A stretch of 64,000 bases of DNA from an uncultured Prevotellaceae bacterium (lineage in GTDB: Bacteria; Bacteroidota; Bacteroidia; Bacteroidales; Bacteroidaceae): assembly GCA_947169115.1 (NCBI GenBank), contig CAMVOK010000016.1, positions 1 through 64,000 on the forward strand, read 5' to 3'. The notes under the pieces are model-generated. The model saw only the letters and a program-made list of their open reading frames with translations, was not told the origin of the DNA and did no database searches. This document shows positions 10,455-58,008 of the stretch, piece after piece. Positions within the stretch are counted from its first letter, which is position 1, and each line of letters starts with the position of its first letter. Position numbers and translations under genes: made by a program.

Positions 10455-11123
10455 TTACAATTCAAGGAAGTTGCGGAGTATGCGTTCTCCCACGCTTCCA
10501 CTCTTTTCGGGGTGGAATTGTGTGGCGTAGAAGTTGTCGCGGTGGAGGGCTGCACTGTAGGGCTGAATGTAGTCGGTCGTGGCGATTGTCCAAGAGCATG
10601 TCGGTACGTAGTAGCTATGAACAAAATAGACATACTCGCCTCCCTTGAAGCCTTGGAACAGCCCTTCAGGAATTAACTCTTCTTGCACAGCAAGCGTAGC
10701 CCCTTCGGATCGTCCGATTACACCCTTCATCCTTAACCCGTCACTATGCGTGAAACGCAGCTCATTCCATCCCATGTGGGGAACTTTGTCTTCGTGACGC
10801 TGAGGCTGAAAACGTAGAACTGGCACGTCGAAAATACCCAAGCAGTCAACATCTCCCTCTTCGGAATGTCGGCACATCAGTTGCTGACCGATGCAGATGC
10901 CAAGGATGGGCTGTTTGAGGTTTCGGATTACGTTATCCAAGCCATGGGCACACAGGTACTTCATGGCATTGCTGGCCTCGCCTTGCCCAGGGAAGATGAC
11001 TTTGTCGGCTTTGGCTATACGCTCGGCATTGTTTGTCAGCATGGGTTTGATGCCCAATCGCTGAAGGGCATGGATGACGGAGTAAATGTTTCCGGCGTTA
11101 TAGTCTATGATAGCAACCTCCAT
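10455..11123 (-). CDS. hisH: Imidazole glycerol phosphate synthase, glutamine amidotransferase subunit, with repeat-derived insertion
   Basis: The 222-aa class I glutaminase supplies ammonia to HisF. It starts MEVAIIDYNAGN and has the oxyanion segment FPGQGEA, the nucleophile in GICIGQQLM (Cys77), and the His/Glu pair in FHPEKSG (about residues 204-206). Between the conserved PHMGWNELRF and GEYVYFVHSYYVP it carries roughly 25-30 residues more than I expect for the family. Residues about 128-149 of that insert are encoded by DNA matching an intergenic repeat at 19283-19343. The catalytic residues are intact and the insertion sits in a surface-loop region, so the enzyme is probably active. Confidence 0.95.
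   Translation of the reverse strand: MEVAIIDYNAGNIYSVIHALQRLGIKPMLTNNAERIAKADKVIFPGQGEASNAMKYLCAHGLDNVIRNLKQPILGICIGQQLMCRHSEEGDVDCLGIFDVPVLRFQPQRHEDKVPHMGWNELRFTHSDGLRMKGVIGRSEGATLAVQEELIPEGLFQGFKGGEYVYFVHSYYVPTCSWTIATTDYIQPYSAALHRDNFYATQFHPEKSGSVGERILRNFLEL
10677..10742 (-). repeat. Copy of an intergenic mosaic repeat embedded in hisH
   Basis: Read on the coding strand, this segment contains GGGTTAAGGATG, TGTAATCGGACG, TACGCTTGC and GCAAGAAG in that order. The same four blocks occur in the same order in non-coding DNA at 19283-19343 on the plus strand. In hisH the blocks are kept in an open frame by a 6-bp insertion and altered spacers. Confidence 0.85.
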
Positions 11124-11813: not shown

Positions 11814-13184
11814 TTAAATGTTTTTCTTTAAGAATAATCGTTGATTGATACATGGAGGCAATTCTTCCTCGTAGTGAGTCACCATGACAAGTGTCTTGTG
11901 CTTTCGTTGGCAGAAGGTCTCTATAATCTCCTTCACACGGGCACGATTCTTGTTGTCCAGACCATGTAATGGTTCGTCAAGGATGAGTAGTTCGGGATCT
12001 TTGATAAAGGCGCGTGCCAGCAGGCACAGCCGTTGTTCTCCACTTGAGAGTTGCAAGAAAGTGCGGTCGGCCAGTTCGCGGATGCCAAAGACTTGCATCC
12101 AGCGCAGGCATATATCGCGCTGGTTGGGCTTGGGTCGGGCATATAGGCCGATAGAGTCGTTAAGACCACTGGCTACGATGTCTATGGCAGGTATGTCTTT
12201 CTGATAAGCACGGTGCATTTCCGGACTTACATAGCCGATGTGTTTCTTAATCTCCCAAATGCTTTCTCCCGAACCCCGCCGATGGCCAAACAGGCGAATG
12301 TCGCAGGCATAGCCTTGTGGATTGTCGGCACAGACGAGACTTAACAATGTGCTCTTTCCAGCCCCATTCTCACCGCTTAGTGCCCATCGCTCGCTTTCGT
12401 TTACCGTCCAGTTGAGGTGGGAGAGTATGGTGCGTTCCCCATAACGGATATTAACCTCGGTGAATTTCAGTATCTCTCCTCCTTCTTGTGGATAGAATGG
12501 GGTAGTCTGTATGTCTTTCGATTCGAGTTGCAATATCCAGTCACGTTCTTCTTGTGGAAGGGCAGGAGAGGAGGGACTTATTGGGGCGTTCACGTATTCT
12601 TCACGTGTTATCTTATCTCCGACATGTAAATCTTCTACAGGAATGACGTGGGTGATGAATGGGGGTAGGTCATCGGTTTTTGATAACACAAGAATGAGCG
12701 TTAACGAGGTCTCGTGGATGAGATTCTGAAGCAGCTCGGATAAGATTTTGCGGTTTTGAACGTCCAACCCAATGAAGGGATTATCGATGATGAGCACATC
12801 GGGACATGAACGTAACACTTTCCCCAGTTGGTATTTGCGCATCTCGCCGCTCGAAAGAGCTATGATGGGTTTACCGTCCACGCGGGGCATGTCATCGGAA
12901 ATGTCATGCTGGTTCCAACGCTGCTGATAGTAGTATGTGCCATCCTGTTCTCCATACGAATCTCGGAAAGTGATGTTCCGCACAAGTCCATGCTCACCGC
13001 CAACCTCATTTTGTAACAATGGGTATCGGCCTGTGATGATGTCAACCAAACGGCTCTTGCCTGATGCATTTGCTCCCACGATAGCGATTTGTTCACCTTC
13101 GTAGATGCACAGGTTGACAGGCTCTGCCATCCGTTTCCCCGGATGGCGGGTCACTCCGTTCCGTATGGTTATTATCTCTTTCAC
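11814..13184 (-). CDS. Double-ABC-domain ATPase, ModF/PhrA-like
   Basis: This 456-aa soluble protein holds two ABC domains. The first has Walker [10 protein letters not shown] (about residue 38) and a signature-like LSSGEMRKY. The second has GENGAGKST (about residue 270), signature LSSGEQRL and Walker [13 protein letters not shown]. No transmembrane segments are present. It resembles ModF/PhrA, formerly linked to photorepair or molybdate genes but of unproven function. The linker between the domains ([12 protein letters not shown]) is encoded by DNA that looks like a degenerate copy of the C-rich palindromic element. The start overlaps the ruvC end by 4 bp. Confidence 0.85.
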
Positions 13185-13801
13185 CCTTGCACTCTATCTT
13201 TGTTCTTGTTAGCGAAGTCCTTCCACGAACGGTACGAGACCGTGTTCTGAGGACGGTTCGACTGCATGAAATGGCAATAGGCTGCGGCCAGTGCATCGGT
13301 CGCATCGAAGTGCTGTCTCATCTGTTCTTCGTCCAGATGGAGTATGCGTTGTAGCATTCCGGCTACCTGCTCTTTCGAGGCACCGCCTGTACCCGTAAGT
13401 GCCATCTTTATTTTCATTGGGGCATATTCGTGGATGGGAACATCGTGTTGTATGGCTGCTGCAATAGCAACGCCCTGTGCGCGTCCCAGTTTCAGCATCG
13501 ATTGTACGTTCTTCCCGAAAAATGGTGCCTCAATAGCCAGTTCGTCGGGCAGATACGACTGGATGATGCCGGAGACCCGTTCATAGATATGCCCCAGTTT
13601 CAGATAACCGTCATCAATCTTGTGCATGTCAATGACCCCAAGAGCCACGGCTTCGGCCTTGTTGCCTAAAACCTTCAGTACTCCGTAACCCATGAGGTTC
13701 GTGCCAGGGTCAATCCCCAATATGATTTTCTCAAACCTCCTCCTGCCCCCTCCGAGAGAGGGGGTGTTGGTGGTCAGAGATTCGTTGTGCTGCTTTATCA
13801 T
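13181..13801 (-). CDS. ruvC: Holliday junction resolvase RuvC with repeat-derived N-terminal extension
   Basis: The RNase H-fold nuclease resolves Holliday junctions together with RuvAB. Acidic catalytic residues are visible in GIDPGTN (Asp31), [10 protein letters not shown] and near the end in [12 protein letters not shown]. The family normally starts a few residues before [11 protein letters not shown]. Here about 20 extra residues precede it, and [11 protein letters not shown] is encoded by a C-rich palindromic element. No ATG lies closer to the core, so the extension is probably translated. The start codon overlaps the DUF4286 stop (TAATG), indicating coupling. Confidence 0.95.
13734..13770. 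repeat. C-rich palindromic element encoding the RuvC N-terminus
   Basis: The palindrome CCCCCTCCGAGAGAGGGGG is flanked by CCTCCTCCTG. On the minus strand it is translated in frame as part of the RuvC N-terminus, immediately before the catalytic first strand. Confidence 0.85.
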
Positions 13802-19214: not shown

Positions 19215-19550
19215 GCAAGAAGGGTGAAGGGTGAAGGGTTAAGGGTGAAGAGTGAAGGGTGAAGAGTGAAGGGTGAAGAATGAAGGGTTAAGGATGTAAT
19301 CGGACGGCGCAGCCTACGCTTGCAGAGCGAAGCGGGGCAAGAAGTGAGAGGTGAAGGGTGAAATGATAAATGATAAATAATAAGTGAGAAGTGAAATGAT
19401 AAATAATAAATGATAAATTCTCTAACCAGACGGCCAAAGGCCTACGCTTGGCTCGTCCAAGAATGTTCAATGCTCAATGTTCCGCTCGGCTTTGCCGCTT
19501 GCGTAGAGAAACGGAGCAAGAATGTTCAATTCTCAATGCATTAAATCTTC
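19215..19550. repeat. Mosaic of slippage repeats and hairpin cores upstream of the DUF1573 gene
   Basis: GTGAAGGGTGAAG-type micro-repeats (19215-19290) are interrupted by a core (TAATCGGACGG..GCCTACGCTTGC..GCAAGAAG, 19295-19343). GTGAAATGATAAATAATAA units follow, then a second core (GACGGCCAAAGGCCTACGCTTGGC, about 19430) and AATGTTCAATGCTCAATG units. A third core ends in CGGAGCAAGAATG, followed by AATGTTCAATTCTCAATG. There is no convincing gene between 18561 and 19612. Confidence 0.75.
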
Positions 19551-40100: not shown

Positions 40101-40122
40101 TAAATTTTGAAAAAGGAATTTG

Positions 40123-40232
40123 GTCAACCTTACGTCGGGGCTTCGTCAACCTTATGTCGAAGCTTGGTCAACCTTATGACGGAGCTCGGTCAACCTTATG
40201 ACGAGGCATGGTCAACCTTATGACGGAGGAGG
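40123..40232. repeat. 22-bp-pitch array of GTCAACCTTATGAC units
   Basis: Five units start at 40123, 40145, 40167, 40189 and 40211, exactly 22 bp apart. The first ten bases GTCAACCTTA are invariant, TGAC or TGTC follows in most, and the last 6-8 bases vary. GTCA...TGAC makes each a partial palindrome. The array lies immediately upstream of the lipid kinase -33 box. Confidence 0.92.
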
Positions 40233-45144: not shown

Positions 45145-45187
45145 AGCATATTTTTTCACATACGTATGCCTGTCGTGGAAGATTATT

Positions 45188-45256
45188 ATTGCGATGCCCG
45201 TAAGAATAGTATTGCGATGGCCGTAAGATTATTATTGCGATGGCCGTAAGAATGGT
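45188..45256. repeat. 23-bp-pitch array of ATTGCGATGGCCGTAAGA units
   Basis: Three units start at 45188, 45211 and 45234, with 23-bp steps and a conserved 18-bp part. A weak fourth match (GTTGCGATTC) lies near 45281, about two periods later. The array lies between the divergent promoters of the DUF3298 lipoprotein gene and mfd. Confidence 0.85.
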
Positions 45257-45293
45257 ATCTTTCGTGCCTTGGACAAGTATGTTGCGATTCATG

Positions 45294-49557: not shown

Positions 49558-50790
49558 ATGGCAGGATATGATTTGACACAGATAAAAGCCCGATACGGCA
49601 TCATTGGTCGCGACGCACGTCTCGATCAGGTTCTTGACACGGCATTGCAGGTGGCCAAGACTAATCTGGCTGTCTTCATACAGGGCGAAAGCGGCACGGG
49701 CAAGGAAATTGTTCCGCGCATTATACATGACCATTCGCTACGAAAGACAAAACGCTATATTGCAATCAACTGTGGTTCTATTCCCGAGGGTACGATAGAC
49801 AGTGAATTGTTTGGCCATGTGAAGGGCTCGTTCACGGGTGCTATCAGTGACCATGATGGCTACTTTGGGGCGGCCAATGGAGGGACACTCTTCCTCGACG
49901 AGGTGGGAGAACTGCCCCTTAGCACTCAGGTTCGTTTGTTGCGTGTTCTGGAAACGGGAGAGTATATACCCGTAGGTGGTAGCGAGCCGAAGAAGACGGA
50001 CGTACGCATTGTGGCGGCTACCAATGTCCAGATAGAAAAGGCCATACGTGAGGGCAAGTTCCGCGAGGATTTGTACTATCGTCTCTGTACCATCCGTGTG
50101 AAAATGCCACCTTTGCGCGAGCGTGGCGAGGATGTGTTGCTGCTTTTCAAGAAGTTTGCAATGGATACGGCCCAGCAGTATAGCATTCCCGAGCCTTTGC
50201 GCCTTACACCAGAGGCGGGTAGGGTGATGATGTCATACAAGTGGCCAGGCAACATACGTCAGTTCAAGAATGTAGTAGAACAGATGAGCATCCTTTGCGA
50301 GGAACGTGTCATCACCCCAGAAATACTGGCTCAATATGAGATTACTCCCTCACAGGAAACTACAGACTTGGCTCTGCGAGATGGCAGTCTTTCAACTCAG
50401 CCGAGCGACGGAACGGTGGAGCATACGCTGAAGATGATGCAGTTGATGATTCACTCCCTGAAGATGGATGTGGAGATGTTGAAGCAAAGGGTTGATGCTG
50501 CCGAACAGTCTGGACACATCGTACATCAGCTTTCAGCACCGACCCCACAACCTCGTTCGGAATATTCTGAATATTCAGAGTATTCGGAGCCTTCAGAGTA
50601 TGCTGAAAGTTCGGATACCTCGGATTTTGCCGATGATGAGGAAGATTTAAATTTAGAGAAGATGGAGCGCCGCATGATTGAAAAGGCACTGCGTCGTAGC
50701 CGCAATCGTCGAAAGGTGGCTGCCGACGACTTGGGAATTAGCGAGCGAACTCTTTATCGTAAAATTAAAGACTATGGAATTGAGGAATAA
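49558..50790 (+). CDS. Sigma-54-interacting transcriptional activator without receiver domain
   Basis: This 410-aa protein starts almost directly with the AAA+ domain: IIGRDARLDQVLD, Walker A GESGTGKE (about residue 43), the sigma-54 contact loop GSFTGA (GAFTGA variant) and Walker B GGTLFLDEV, then YKWPGNIRQFKNVVEQ. The C-terminus has a Fis-type HTH (RRKVAADDLGISERTLYRKI). No receiver or sensor domain is present. A linker of repeated Ser-Glu-Tyr (SEYSEYSEYSEPSEY) is encoded by a degenerate 9-bp DNA repeat. It heads an operon with lptE, a TPR-like gene and secG. It probably controls envelope-related genes, which is inference from neighbours. Confidence 0.92.
   Translation: MAGYDLTQIKARYGIIGRDARLDQVLDTALQVAKTNLAVFIQGESGTGKEIVPRIIHDHSLRKTKRYIAINCGSIPEGTIDSELFGHVKGSFTGAISDHDGYFGAANGGTLFLDEVGELPLSTQVRLLRVLETGEYIPVGGSEPKKTDVRIVAATNVQIEKAIREGKFREDLYYRLCTIRVKMPPLRERGEDVLLLFKKFAMDTAQQYSIPEPLRLTPEAGRVMMSYKWPGNIRQFKNVVEQMSILCEERVITPEILAQYEITPSQETTDLALRDGSLSTQPSDGTVEHTLKMMQLMIHSLKMDVEMLKQRVDAAEQSGHIVHQLSAPTPQPRSEYSEYSEYSEPSEYAESSDTSDFADDEEDLNLEKMERRMIEKALRRSRNRRKVAADDLGISERTLYRKIKDYGIEE
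50558..50625. repeat. Degenerate 9-bp repeat within the activator gene
   Basis: Units related to GAATATTCT and GAGTATTCG repeat about seven times and encode the Ser-Glu-Tyr linker. This sequence style is like the intergenic slippage repeats. Confidence 0.75.
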
Positions 50791-51322
50791 AAGACCCTCT
50801 CCCGACCTCTCCCATAAAGGGCGAGGAGTAGGCTGGGTTCTTGTGTTTCTGTTGGCTTTAGCTTCGTGTACGGTGAGCTACAAGTTCAATGGTGCCAGCA
50901 TTGACTACACCAAGACCAAGACGATACAAATAGATAACTTCCCCATTCGTTCGGCTTATGTATGGGCACCCATGCAATCTATCTTCCAAAATAAACTGAC
51001 TGACCTCTATGCATCCCAGACGAAATTGCGTCAGGTGAAGAAGGGCGGCGATTTGCAACTGGCTGGTGAGATTACGGGCTTTGACCAGTATAATAAGGCT
51101 ATCTCGGCAGAAGGTTATTCGAGTCAGGTGCAATTGAAGATGACGGTGAACGTGCGCTTTGTTAATAATGCCAACCATACGGAGGACTTTGAACGACAGT
51201 TCTCGGCAACAACAGAATATGACTCCAGTCAGCAACTCATCAATGTCCAGGAGGAACTGGTTACGCAAATGGTGAAGGACATTACAGAACAAATCTTTAA
51301 CGCAACGGTGGCAAACTGGTAA
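50774..51322 (+). CDS. lptE: LptE family LPS-assembly lipoprotein
   Basis: The 182-aa protein starts at MELRNKRPSPDLSHKGRG, overlapping the activator gene by 17 bp. The track start 32 codons upstream lies inside the activator HTH and is rejected. The hydrophobic VLVFLLALASC provides a lipobox. The mature part (CTVSYKFNGASIDYTKTKTI and a C-terminal helix) matches the Bacteroidetes LptE family. LptE plugs the LptD barrel that inserts lipopolysaccharide into the outer membrane. The n-region of the signal peptide is encoded by a C-rich palindromic element, making it unusually long and proline-containing. Confidence 0.9.
   Translation: MELRNKRPSPDLSHKGRGVGWVLVFLLALASCTVSYKFNGASIDYTKTKTIQIDNFPIRSAYVWAPMQSIFQNKLTDLYASQTKLRQVKKGGDLQLAGEITGFDQYNKAISAEGYSSQVQLKMTVNVRFVNNANHTEDFERQFSATTEYDSSQQLINVQEELVTQMVKDITEQIFNATVANW
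50791..50839. repeat. C-rich palindromic element encoding the LptE signal n-region
   Basis: GACCCTCTCCCGACCTCTCC followed by CATAAAGGGCGAGGAG has the standard form of the family, with a long C-rich left arm. It begins directly after the stop codon of the activator gene. It is read as KRPSPDLSHKGRGVGW. Confidence 0.85.
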
Positions 51323-55719: not shown

Positions 55720-57978
55720 TTAATCCTGCTTTAGCCAGCGGTCGAGCCAGGCGAAATAGGTGCGTTGCCAAAGAATACCATTTTGGGGCTTCAGCACCCA
55801 GTGGTTTTCGTCGGGGAAGATGAGTAACTGTGCCTCTATGCCTCGCATACGGGCTGCGTTGAAGGCAGACATGCCTTGGGTGGCATTGATGCGATAGTCT
55901 TTTTCGCCGTGGATACAGAGGATGGGGGTGTCCCACTTGTCCACAAAGCGATGGGGGGAGTTGTCGTACGTTTTCTTGGCACGGGCAGTCATATCCTTCA
56001 CCCAGGGAGCATCGTCGTACTCCCAGTTTGAGAACCAGTTCTCCTCGGTTTCTGTGTACATGGCTTCAAGATTGAAGGCACCGTCGTGTGCAATGAAGCA
56101 TTTGAAGCGCTTGTCATGATGGCCAGCCAGATAATAAACAGAGAATCCTCCGAACGAAGCACCTACGGCACCGAGACGGTCTCTGTCCACATAAGGCAGA
56201 TTTTCGCAAGCATCGTCAATGGCTGCCAGGTAGTCCTGCATGCACTGGCCCGTCCAGTCGCCCGAGATTTCTTCCTGCCAGGCAAGTCCGAATCCGGGAA
56301 GACCATGGCGGTTAGGGGCAATGACCACGTAACCCTGAGCTGCCATTATCATGAAGTTCCAGCGGTACGACCAGAATTGAGATACTGGACTTTGCGGTCC
56401 CCCCTCGCAGAAGAGTAGGGTGGGGTACTTCTTGTTGGGGTCGAAGTGAGGTGGTTTCACTATCCAATAATGCATGTCCTCACCAGTAGTGGTTTTAATC
56501 CAGCGGGCCTCGCTGGAGCCTGCTGCAATTTGATTGAGGATGTGGTCGTTCTCGTGAGTGACTTGGGTTAACTCGACGATGGAATCGCCGAGCACGTCAG
56601 CCAGATAGAGGTCTGCAGGGTGCATGTAGTTGTGCTGCTCAACCAACAACTTGGATTTGCCTGGCACCAATTGCAAGCTGCCAAAGTCTGCCTGGAAGTC
56701 TGAGAGTTGCTTTACATTGCCCTCAAGGTCTGTACGATAGAGGTTCTCTGTGGCATGCCAGACACCGAGGAAGTAGATGGTCTCGCTATCGTCACCCCAA
56801 ACGAAGTCGTCGACGTTGGAGTCGAAGGATTCAGTGACATATTGCGAAGTACCCTGTCCGAGGAAATAGACACAGAGTCGCATGCGGTCGGCCTCATAGC
56901 CATCGCGCTCCATGCTTGTCCAAGCGATGTAGCGTCCGTCGGGCGAGAACTTGGGGTTCTGGTCGTAGCCCACCTTTTGTTCGATGTAGAATCCTCCGTC
57001 TTCGGCAATCTCCTGTTCTGTGAACATGCCGTTGCCTTTCTTGTTCACCGTCTGGTCGGCAAGCGTGTGCGTGGGGTTCACTTCGGGAGCCACGTAGTCG
57101 CCCGTCTTGCATAGGTTCATTTCTTCACCGCTCTCAATGTCATAGAGGAAGATGTCGGAGTCTGTGGAGATGCTCATCTGGAGTCCTGTCTTCTTGCGGC
57201 AGGTGTAGGCAATCTGCTTCGAATCGGGGCTCCATGCCAGTTGCTCGATGCCTCCGAATGGCTCCATTGGGCACTCGTAAGGCAGCCCCTCGAGGATGTC
57301 CTTTTCTTCTCCTGTCTCCAAGTTAAGGAGGAAGGGGTGTGGAATTGACTCCACATAGTGATCCCAATGGCGATACATGAGGTCGGTCACCAGTCGTCCC
57401 GTAGCCTTTGGCAGGTCGCTGGGGTTCTCCTTGATGATGTCGTGATAGGGTATGTACTTGATGAGGATGACCTTCTTCTGGTCAGGCGAGAAGAGGAATC
57501 CCTCCACTTTGCCATCCGTCTTGGTCAATTGCTTGCGAGCATAACCCTTCATCTTTAACCCTTCACCCTTCACCTTCATGGTCCAAACTTCGCCCTCTTT
57601 GGCAAATGCCAGCTTATCGTCACTAAGCCATACGGGGGAAGAACCAAGGCCGAGGAAAGTCCCTTCCTGACCTCCCCGAGGGGAGGAAATAACATCCCCC
57701 TCGGGGGATAAAAGGGGGGCTGTATAGATTACCGTATTGCTGCGGTTCTCTTCCACGCTGTAATAGCTGACTTGGTAGGCCACTTGCTTGCCATCGGGAG
57801 AAACAGCATAAGAGCCTATTCTGCCCATGGCCCACAGGGCTTCAGGTGTCATTACGTCACTCTCCAACTGGATGTCGCTTCGCGTGATGATATTCTCGTC
57901 TTGTTTAGAACAGGATGCCATGATAATCAATGCTAGAACACAAAACCATTTACCATTTAACCATTTACGATTTACCAT
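55720..57978 (-). CDS. S9 family prolyl-oligopeptidase/DPP-like lipoprotein with three repeat-derived segments
   Basis: The 752-aa serine peptidase has an N-terminal beta-propeller (YAVSPDGKQVAYQ-type blades) and a C-terminal alpha/beta hydrolase domain. The catalytic residues lie in GASFGGFS (Ser), EKDYRIN (Asp) and DENHWVL (His). It resembles dipeptidyl-peptidase 5. Its lipobox IIMASC (Cys23) suggests outer-membrane anchoring. Three parts are repeat-coded: the first 11 residues (MVNRKWLNGKW) from a GGTAAATGGTTAAATGG repeat, residues about 89-108 (SPEGDVISSPRGGQEG) from a double palindromic element, and residues about 134-145 (MKVKGEGLKMKG) from a GTGAAGGGTTAAAG-type repeat. The catalytic domain is untouched. 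Confidence 0.93.
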   Translation of the reverse strand: MVNRKWLNGKWFCVLALIIMASCSKQDENIITRSDIQLESDVMTPEALWAMGRIGSYAVSPDGKQVAYQVSYYSVEENRSNTVIYTAPLLSPEGDVISSPRGGQEGTFLGLGSSPVWLSDDKLAFAKEGEVWTMKVKGEGLKMKGYARKQLTKTDGKVEGFLFSPDQKKVILIKYIPYHDIIKENPSDLPKATGRLVTDLMYRHWDHYVESIPHPFLLNLETGEEKDILEGLPYECPMEPFGGIEQLAWSPDSKQIAYTCRKKTGLQMSISTDSDIFLYDIESGEEMNLCKTGDYVAPEVNPTHTLADQTVNKKGNGMFTEQEIAEDGGFYIEQKVGYDQNPKFSPDGRYIAWTSMERDGYEADRMRLCVYFLGQGTSQYVTESFDSNVDDFVWGDDSETIYFLGVWHATENLYRTDLEGNVKQLSDFQADFGSLQLVPGKSKLLVEQHNYMHPADLYLADVLGDSIVELTQVTHENDHILNQIAAGSSEARWIKTTTGEDMHYWIVKPPHFDPNKKYPTLLFCEGGPQSPVSQFWSYRWNFMIMAAQGYVVIAPNRHGLPGFGLAWQEEISGDWTGQCMQDYLAAIDDACENLPYVDRDRLGAVGASFGGFSVYYLAGHHDKRFKCFIAHDGAFNLEAMYTETEENWFSNWEYDDAPWVKDMTARAKKTYDNSPHRFVDKWDTPILCIHGEKDYRINATQGMSAFNAARMRGIEAQLLIFPDENHWVLKPQNGILWQRTYFAWLDRWLKQD
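57541..57580 (-). repeat. GTGAAGGGT-type slippage repeat inside the S9 peptidase gene
   Basis: On the coding strand the sequence GGTGAAGGGTTAAAGATGAA is like the intergenic units at 19215-19290. It is translated as KVKGEGLKMKG in the propeller. Confidence 0.78.
57659..57723. repeat. Double C-rich palindromic element inside the S9 peptidase gene
   Basis: Two perfect palindromes, CCTCCCCGAGGGGAGG (57671-57686) and ATCCCCCTCGGGGGAT (57694-57709), lie within one element with outer arms GTCCCTTCC and AAAAGGGGGGCT. The frame is open across both. Confidence 0.9.
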
Positions 57979-58008
57979 TTTTTTACCATTTAAACATTTA
58001 TCATTTAC
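57940..58008. repeat. ACCATTTA slippage repeat forming the S9 peptidase start
   Basis: Units of (A)CCATTTA(A/C)... run from the gene gap into the coding region. The ATG at 57978 and the next ten codons are made of this repeat, which is the reverse complement of the type at 23420-23548. Confidence 0.85.

Follow-up and report, generated by a model that had tools for sequence, protein, structure and literature searches.

The best-known case of selfish DNA carried in frame within proteins is that of the intracellular parasite Rickettsia. The Rickettsia palindromic elements (RPE) were described by Ogata et al. (2000, 2002) and are reviewed in PMC10969869 and PMC2229807. GTAG- and CGTC-tagged REPs are small hairpin repeats that are mostly intergenic, with a minority in ORFs, including those of essential genes (Di Nocera et al. 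2013, PMC3733652). No dedicated transposase goes with the CGTC repeats, for which Bacteroidetes are among the listed hosts, and at about the same site in recB two Xanthomonas species carry different REPs (PMC3733652). The BrickBuilt MITE of Porphyromonas gingivalis is built of tandem 23-bp units with inverted ends and is present in about 19 copies per genome, always between genes (PMC4596501). Searches of the open PMC literature, where most subscription papers are missing, yielded no case of a repeat inserted in frame in Bacteroidota.

We analyzed a 64,000-nucleotide stretch of DNA from an uncultured Prevotellaceae bacterium (the window), in which hisH carries an insert that resembles intergenic DNA. 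Judging from the comparisons below, this insert is very probably an in-frame copy of a non-autonomous, expanding dispersed repeat, with selection keeping in-frame copies in tolerant loops.

The hisH insert and its product

The hisH gene is directly upstream of hisA, hisF and hisIE, all on the same strand. The features of the gene and its insert are as follows.

10455..11123, minus strand: hisH coding sequence, 222 aa (ORF list; NCBIfam TIGR01855; PDB 4gud, 1ka9)
10677..10742, minus strand: insert of repeat DNA; the loop holding it lies between HMGWN and YVYFVHSYY
10680..10718, minus strand: 39-bp core, ATCGGAC-hairpin 1-TACG-hairpin 2-AA, encoding IGRSEGATLAVQE (own-genome searches; unit length test)
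10699..10711, minus strand: hairpin 1 of this core, GATCCGAAGGGGC (complementarity across copies)
10682..10694, minus strand: hairpin 2 of this core, CTTGC-TGT-GCAAG
10721..10742, minus strand: period-7 flank of the insert, GGGTTAA, GGATGAA, GGGTG

HisH is 222 aa long here, against a baseline of 196–200 aa in relatives. The loop after HMGWN has 46 residues where the baseline is 20, an excess of about 26, of which about 20 are recognizable repeat. Read on the minus strand, 10742-10677 is GACGGGTTAAGGATGAAGGGTG-TAATCGGACGATCCGAAGGGGCTACGCTTGCTGTGCAAGAA-GAG; the exact ends of the insert are blurred by the heptamer flanks. The earlier note had proposed that about 22 residues were absent from other HisH proteins. 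The loop comparison agrees that most relatives have no counterpart, and corrects the size to about 26 extra residues.

The NCBIfam TIGR01855 match on HisH is split into two stretches, and PDB 4gud aligns on either side of residues 125–153, with nothing opposite these residues. C77, H204 and E206, the catalytic triad, are invariant in an alignment with 29 relatives; the enzyme has taken up repeat DNA and kept its catalytic residues, as the earlier note proposed. A single-chain AlphaFold2 model built from 30 sequences had a mean pLDDT of 85.5 and a pTM of 0.84. Its sole stretches with pLDDT below 50, residues 127–140 and 143–147, are the insert, which starts about 8 residues past the conserved GWN motif. 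The model matched 4gud with a TM-score of 0.81, and Thermotoga HisH chains were matched too. The modeling that the earlier note had suggested predicts that the insert is an unstructured loop on an intact HisH fold.

The repeat family, its core and its reading frame

The window belongs to a metagenome-assembled genome (MAG) of 2.74 Mb in 39 contigs, 87% complete. The 66-bp hisH segment, searched against this genome as the earlier note had proposed, gave 47 matches (best non-self E 6.5e-22) and is, on this evidence, one copy of a dispersed hairpin repeat. Its closest partners, in asnB (92%) and a GH31 glycosidase gene (91%), align across all 66 bp. A core pattern (CGGACG, 4–14 nt, CTACGCTYG, 3–24 nt, AAGAA) was found at 79 places, one of them reported twice, and the reversed-pattern control at 0. 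In the examined stretches of the genome we counted about 88 core copies, the majority intergenic; this census rests on patterns, similarity searches and stretches of one 87%-complete MAG, so that diverged copies were missed, and several cut-offs were set after the data had been inspected. The same pattern was present in just 5 of 60 other genomes of the genus, at 2–6 places each, which marks the expansion as specific to this species within the genus. Rfam gave no covariance-model match at the element, only below-threshold mir-551 look-alikes at one locus outside the core.

The core, about 37–49 bp long and bearing two hairpins, commonly lies within period-7 arrays. Its modules are AYCGGAC, hairpin 1, TACG, hairpin 2 and AA. 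Hairpin 2 occurs as CTTGC..GCAAG, CTTGG..CCAAG or CTCGC..GCGAG. Hairpin 1 has variable stems of 2–5 bp; a perfect stem with a loop of at most 5 nt was present in 21 of 38 distinct sequences, while 2000 shuffles gave a mean of 5.3 and a maximum of 10. By this measure hairpin 1 varies between copies yet keeps its self-complementarity. The core flanks have a lag-7 identity of 0.40, compared with 0.26 in evenly spaced pieces of the window. Terminal inverted repeats of the core were not evident. At five places (L010, L012, L016, L019, L020) the core lies at the same internal position of a longer repeat whose ends are inverted, AACCCCTGCTAA..TTAGCAGGGGTT, and one pattern search found no empty copies of this longer class.

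Other members of the family and further arrays lie elsewhere in the window.

19299..19343, plus strand: long-subtype core between genes, with which the earlier note compared hisH
19219..19293, plus strand: GAAGGGT heptamer array preceding that core (Tandem Repeats Finder)
19425..19463, plus strand: second intergenic core, in a dialect with a CTTGG-CTCGT-CCAAG hairpin
19482..19522, plus strand: element between genes in the CCGCTCGG dialect, as also found in HisH of L099 and L081
57544..57578, minus strand: core-less heptamer array, in frame in the peptidase-like ORF 55720-57978 (MKVKGEGLKMKG)

The blocks reported earlier as shared by hisH and 19283-19343 are correct in sequence and coordinates, but the intergenic partner at 19299-19343 is of a different, longer subtype. 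Within the window the match between the two is moderate (score 74.5; a single other stretch rich in arrays scores higher with two of its pieces, which overlap), so window statistics alone leave chance similarity open; the genome searches exclude chance. Derivation of the hisH insert from the 19283 copy was considered and rejected, as the subtypes differ.

Several other repeats were seen along the way. The first codons of the minus-strand ORF 55720-57978, MVNRKWLNGKW, come from another heptamer array at 57944-58008. A further family at 13181-13801 and 50774-51322 reads, for example, TPLPSRGGAGVG near the N-termini of RuvC and an LptE-like protein; it also occurs in a second AsnB loop (L211), and looks like one more coding repeat of this clade. 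Intergenic tandem arrays with units of 22–23 bp lie at 1691-1797, 40120-40228 and 45179-45258 (TCCTTATAAGGAGTT.., TTGGTCAACCTTATGACG.. and AAGAATAGTATTGCGATGGCCGT) and are unrelated to the heptamers.

About 22 of the 88 core copies lie within open frames that are evidently genes, at least 17 of them, in either orientation and several frames. A single insertion into one enzyme, as first pictured, is too small a description of a family that by this count is in frame throughout the genome. The genes with in-frame copies are hisH, asnB, the GH31 glycosidase gene, purL, porU, argB, mnmA and those for a DUF4922/SpoIID protein, an AddB-like protein, a MATE transporter, an MFS transporter, a nucleotidyltransferase, a metallophosphoesterase and a short protein without a Pfam match. 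A gene for a ResB/CcsA protein has two copies in two dialects, and a CpsB/CapC-like gene (L066, contig C30 of this assembly, near its end) has four tandem cores; tandem core copies also occur at L025 and L027. In L066 the first unit measures 41 bp and those after it 39 bp, so that the reading of the core shifts frame after the first unit. A WbqC-like gene has a partial copy, and two copies form the ends of genes, another MATE gene and a nitrilase-like gene. The names GH31, AddB-like, WbqC-like and nitrilase-like were read from the sequence, without a Pfam or PDB match. The repeat has at least four readings: VIGRPEGATLAVQE and NRTTRRGYA forward, SCTASVAPSGRPIT and FLHGKRSPFGSSDY in reverse. In the proteins tested by PDB and Pfam alignments homology resumes on both sides of the insert, and AsnB aligns with E. 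coli 1ct9 end to end, with a gap at the insert. A dxr-like protein (L173) and ArgB (L160) have a similar segment, GERREERRESNVLDLQKSTKEENVSS.. and GEKREERRERNVIDSPKNTQGEV.., which may be yet another coding repeat.

Core length summed per gene is divisible by 3 in 14 of 16 genes, at 39 or 48 bp per copy, and in 23 of 64 non-genic copies (Fisher p = 2e-4), the latter being about the one third expected. Counted per copy, the figures are 19 of 21 genic and 23 of 64 non-genic (p = 1e-5). As the genic label itself rests on open frames, it and these tests are partly dependent on each other, although an open frame limits the whole insert and not the core alone. One length, 50 bp at L070, was kept uncorrected; with a reading of 13 codons, it probably reflects a miss by the arm finder. 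The short subtype, which is free of stops in four of six frames, is enriched in genes (19/23 versus 21/65, p = 5e-5). Genic and split-gene status were judged by open frames, homology and inspection. Inspection of 20 closely spaced ORF pairs, each on one strand, around non-genic copies found 0 split genes; the pairs were different neighbors such as ligA/dapA or truB/queA. No frameshifted gene with a copy was found. This frame pattern favors a core that inserts whole and is translated straight through, with damaging copies being purged; splicing and ribosomal bypassing are disfavored by it.

The same loops in related genomes

Relatives were taken as the genus plus the 80 nearest named genomes, uncultured Bacteroidaceae and Prevotellaceae that are mostly ruminant gut MAGs. 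Their commonest HisH loop has 20 residues, and insert-free HisH is the norm, as a comparison of the kind recommended in the earlier note shows. The HisH loop of L099 and L081 holds a related but different element, with GGACAAT-like heptamers and ACCGCTCGG..TCAAGAA, in opposite orientations. The two genomes have 27 and 20 matches, respectively, to their own HisH-loop element, at up to 98% identity. Several of these matches are again in frame within genes, for example those of a MiaB-like enzyme, of a glycosyltransferase and, as a tandem pair, of a GH2-like enzyme (names by inspection). L052 has a heptamer minisatellite of about 90 residues. L032 (genome G026) has the hairpin-2 half of the present family; this segment has 9 places in the window's own genome at up to 3 mismatches, whereas the search of G026 itself gave a single place. 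Lag-7 identity over 31 distinct HisH loops of at least 24 residues was 0.34, whereas 500 codon shuffles averaged 0.254 and never exceeded 0.276; the window's own HisH copy is without a lag-7 signal.

By these comparisons the same HisH loop is filled by two other genomes' own dispersed repeats, with heptamer-like DNA in several more. An insert conserved across species at the protein level was not seen; the loop sequences of relatives are unrelated. AsnB is a second case of loop reuse. Relatives have AsnB without an insert; in L212-L214 and L216 the loop used here is occupied by different inserts, of heptamer or palindrome type, and the second AsnB loop holds the different, TPLPSRGGAGVG-type repeat. 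A more general proposal, that a clade of rumen Bacteroidales has a hitherto undescribed class of period-7-array hairpin repeats with species dialects, which go on entering coding DNA and refill tolerant HisH and AsnB loops with disordered segments, independently in many species and without a REP-type transposase, strikes us as evenly balanced.

Mode of spread and comparison with known systems

On the reading that we prefer, the repeat would have multiplied in this species, entering intergenic and coding DNA alike, and purifying selection would have purged the copies that broke genes. The survivors would have a length that is a multiple of three and sit in a tolerant loop, where translation would give a disordered segment. 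The HisH protein would then be made and working, straight translation would apply, and the core would be the moving unit. The segment could instead be an adaptive functional domain whose likeness to a repeat is secondary. Several relatives have longer loops at the same place, near the GWN motif that faces HisF, but the DNA is more than 90% identical to copies in unrelated genes, the relatives fill the loop with unrelated sequences and the model predicts no structure at the insert, all of which make this explanation very improbable. It is scarcely credible that the insert is removed or skipped, by splicing or by ribosomal bypassing as in mitochondrial byp elements, to give a protein of ordinary length. 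The elements are indeed short, hairpin-forming and located inside conserved genes; yet such a process needs no open in-frame copies, and all genic copies found are open, most of their genes show the divisibility by three and no frameshifted copy came to light.

Movement of this dispersed repeat may involve either a trans-acting enzyme or template switching driven by hairpins and heptamers at replication. Transposase-free spread, through template switching or recombination among period-7 arrays at replication with the hairpins as pause sites, is plausible but falls a little short of an even chance. The left and right flanks of a copy share heptamers (mean longest match 5.36, versus 4.00 with random partners, maximum 4.55), and the tandem cores and the changing but complementary hairpin 1 are in keeping with such a process; copies without heptamers in plain coding sequence, such as L070, and the occurrence of both orientations at dispersed sites look more like insertion. 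We consider it rather doubtful that the core is a REP or MITE moved in trans by a tyrosine (Y1/RAYT) or other transposase, that is, a member of the REP/RAYT class proper. Its short paired-hairpin architecture, the five copies nested in the longer repeat and the known entry of REPs into ORFs (PMC3733652) speak for it. Against this, a search with PF01797 for a Y1 transposase (RAYT/IS200) gave no match in the 87%-complete genome, whereas 10 of 41 searched genomes were above the cut-off, and no fixed target-site duplication was found at core copies, whose flanks share heptamers instead.

Repeat DNA repeatedly becoming new protein loops would be a feature of this group that annotation and structure prediction for the clade should anticipate. 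A natural insertion series is available in orthologous enzymes whose shared site is empty or filled by inserts that differ in length and sequence, and tolerance, cost and possible gain are measurable in it.

Among other repeats, the heptameric (STRR-type) repeats of cyanobacteria and others (PMC4692102) form period-7 tandem arrays as here. The BrickBuilt MITE is a Bacteroidales repeat like ours, but has 23-bp units and is described as always intergenic. For the STRR-type repeats we know of no hairpin core, nor are they, to our knowledge, recurrent in-frame protein inserts. CGTC REPs have a single stem of 8–9 bp, a loop of 4–5 nt, a terminal tag and a CCA-like tail (PMC3733652); here the hairpin 1 stems are shorter and variable, each unit has two hairpins and the flanks are often heptamer arrays. 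GTAG and CGTC strings do occur on the reverse strand at the junctions of hairpin 1 and flank, and a distant link to these REPs is possible. As a precedent for the reuse of the HisH loop, the two Xanthomonas species have different REPs at nearly one position in recB.

Our best reading is that the repeats of this genome behave as Rickettsia palindromic elements and intragenic REPs do, with a different architecture. Like RPE, they are short palindromic repeats with many copies, a species-specific expansion and no known transposase, a likeness of behavior, by description. The 79 places with no control match and the complementarity of hairpin 1 agree with dispersed palindromic copies. In both systems about half the copies or fewer are in frame inside unrelated protein genes and open in more than one frame; here these are the roughly 22 of 88 copies, and relatives have insert-free HisH and AsnB. 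The original RPE were about 150 bp, with shorter ones in other RPE families; the core here has 37–49 bp and two hairpins. PMC10969869 and PMC2229807 describe no period-7 arrays, which are present here. Unlike in RPE, the same loops are struck by different repeats in different species. RPE hosts are intracellular alphaproteobacteria, and ours are Bacteroidales with genomes of 2–4 Mb. High-copy in-frame repeats in such ordinary-sized rumen genomes, with different repeats using the same enzyme loops again and again, would show that the phenomenon is no quirk of intracellular life.
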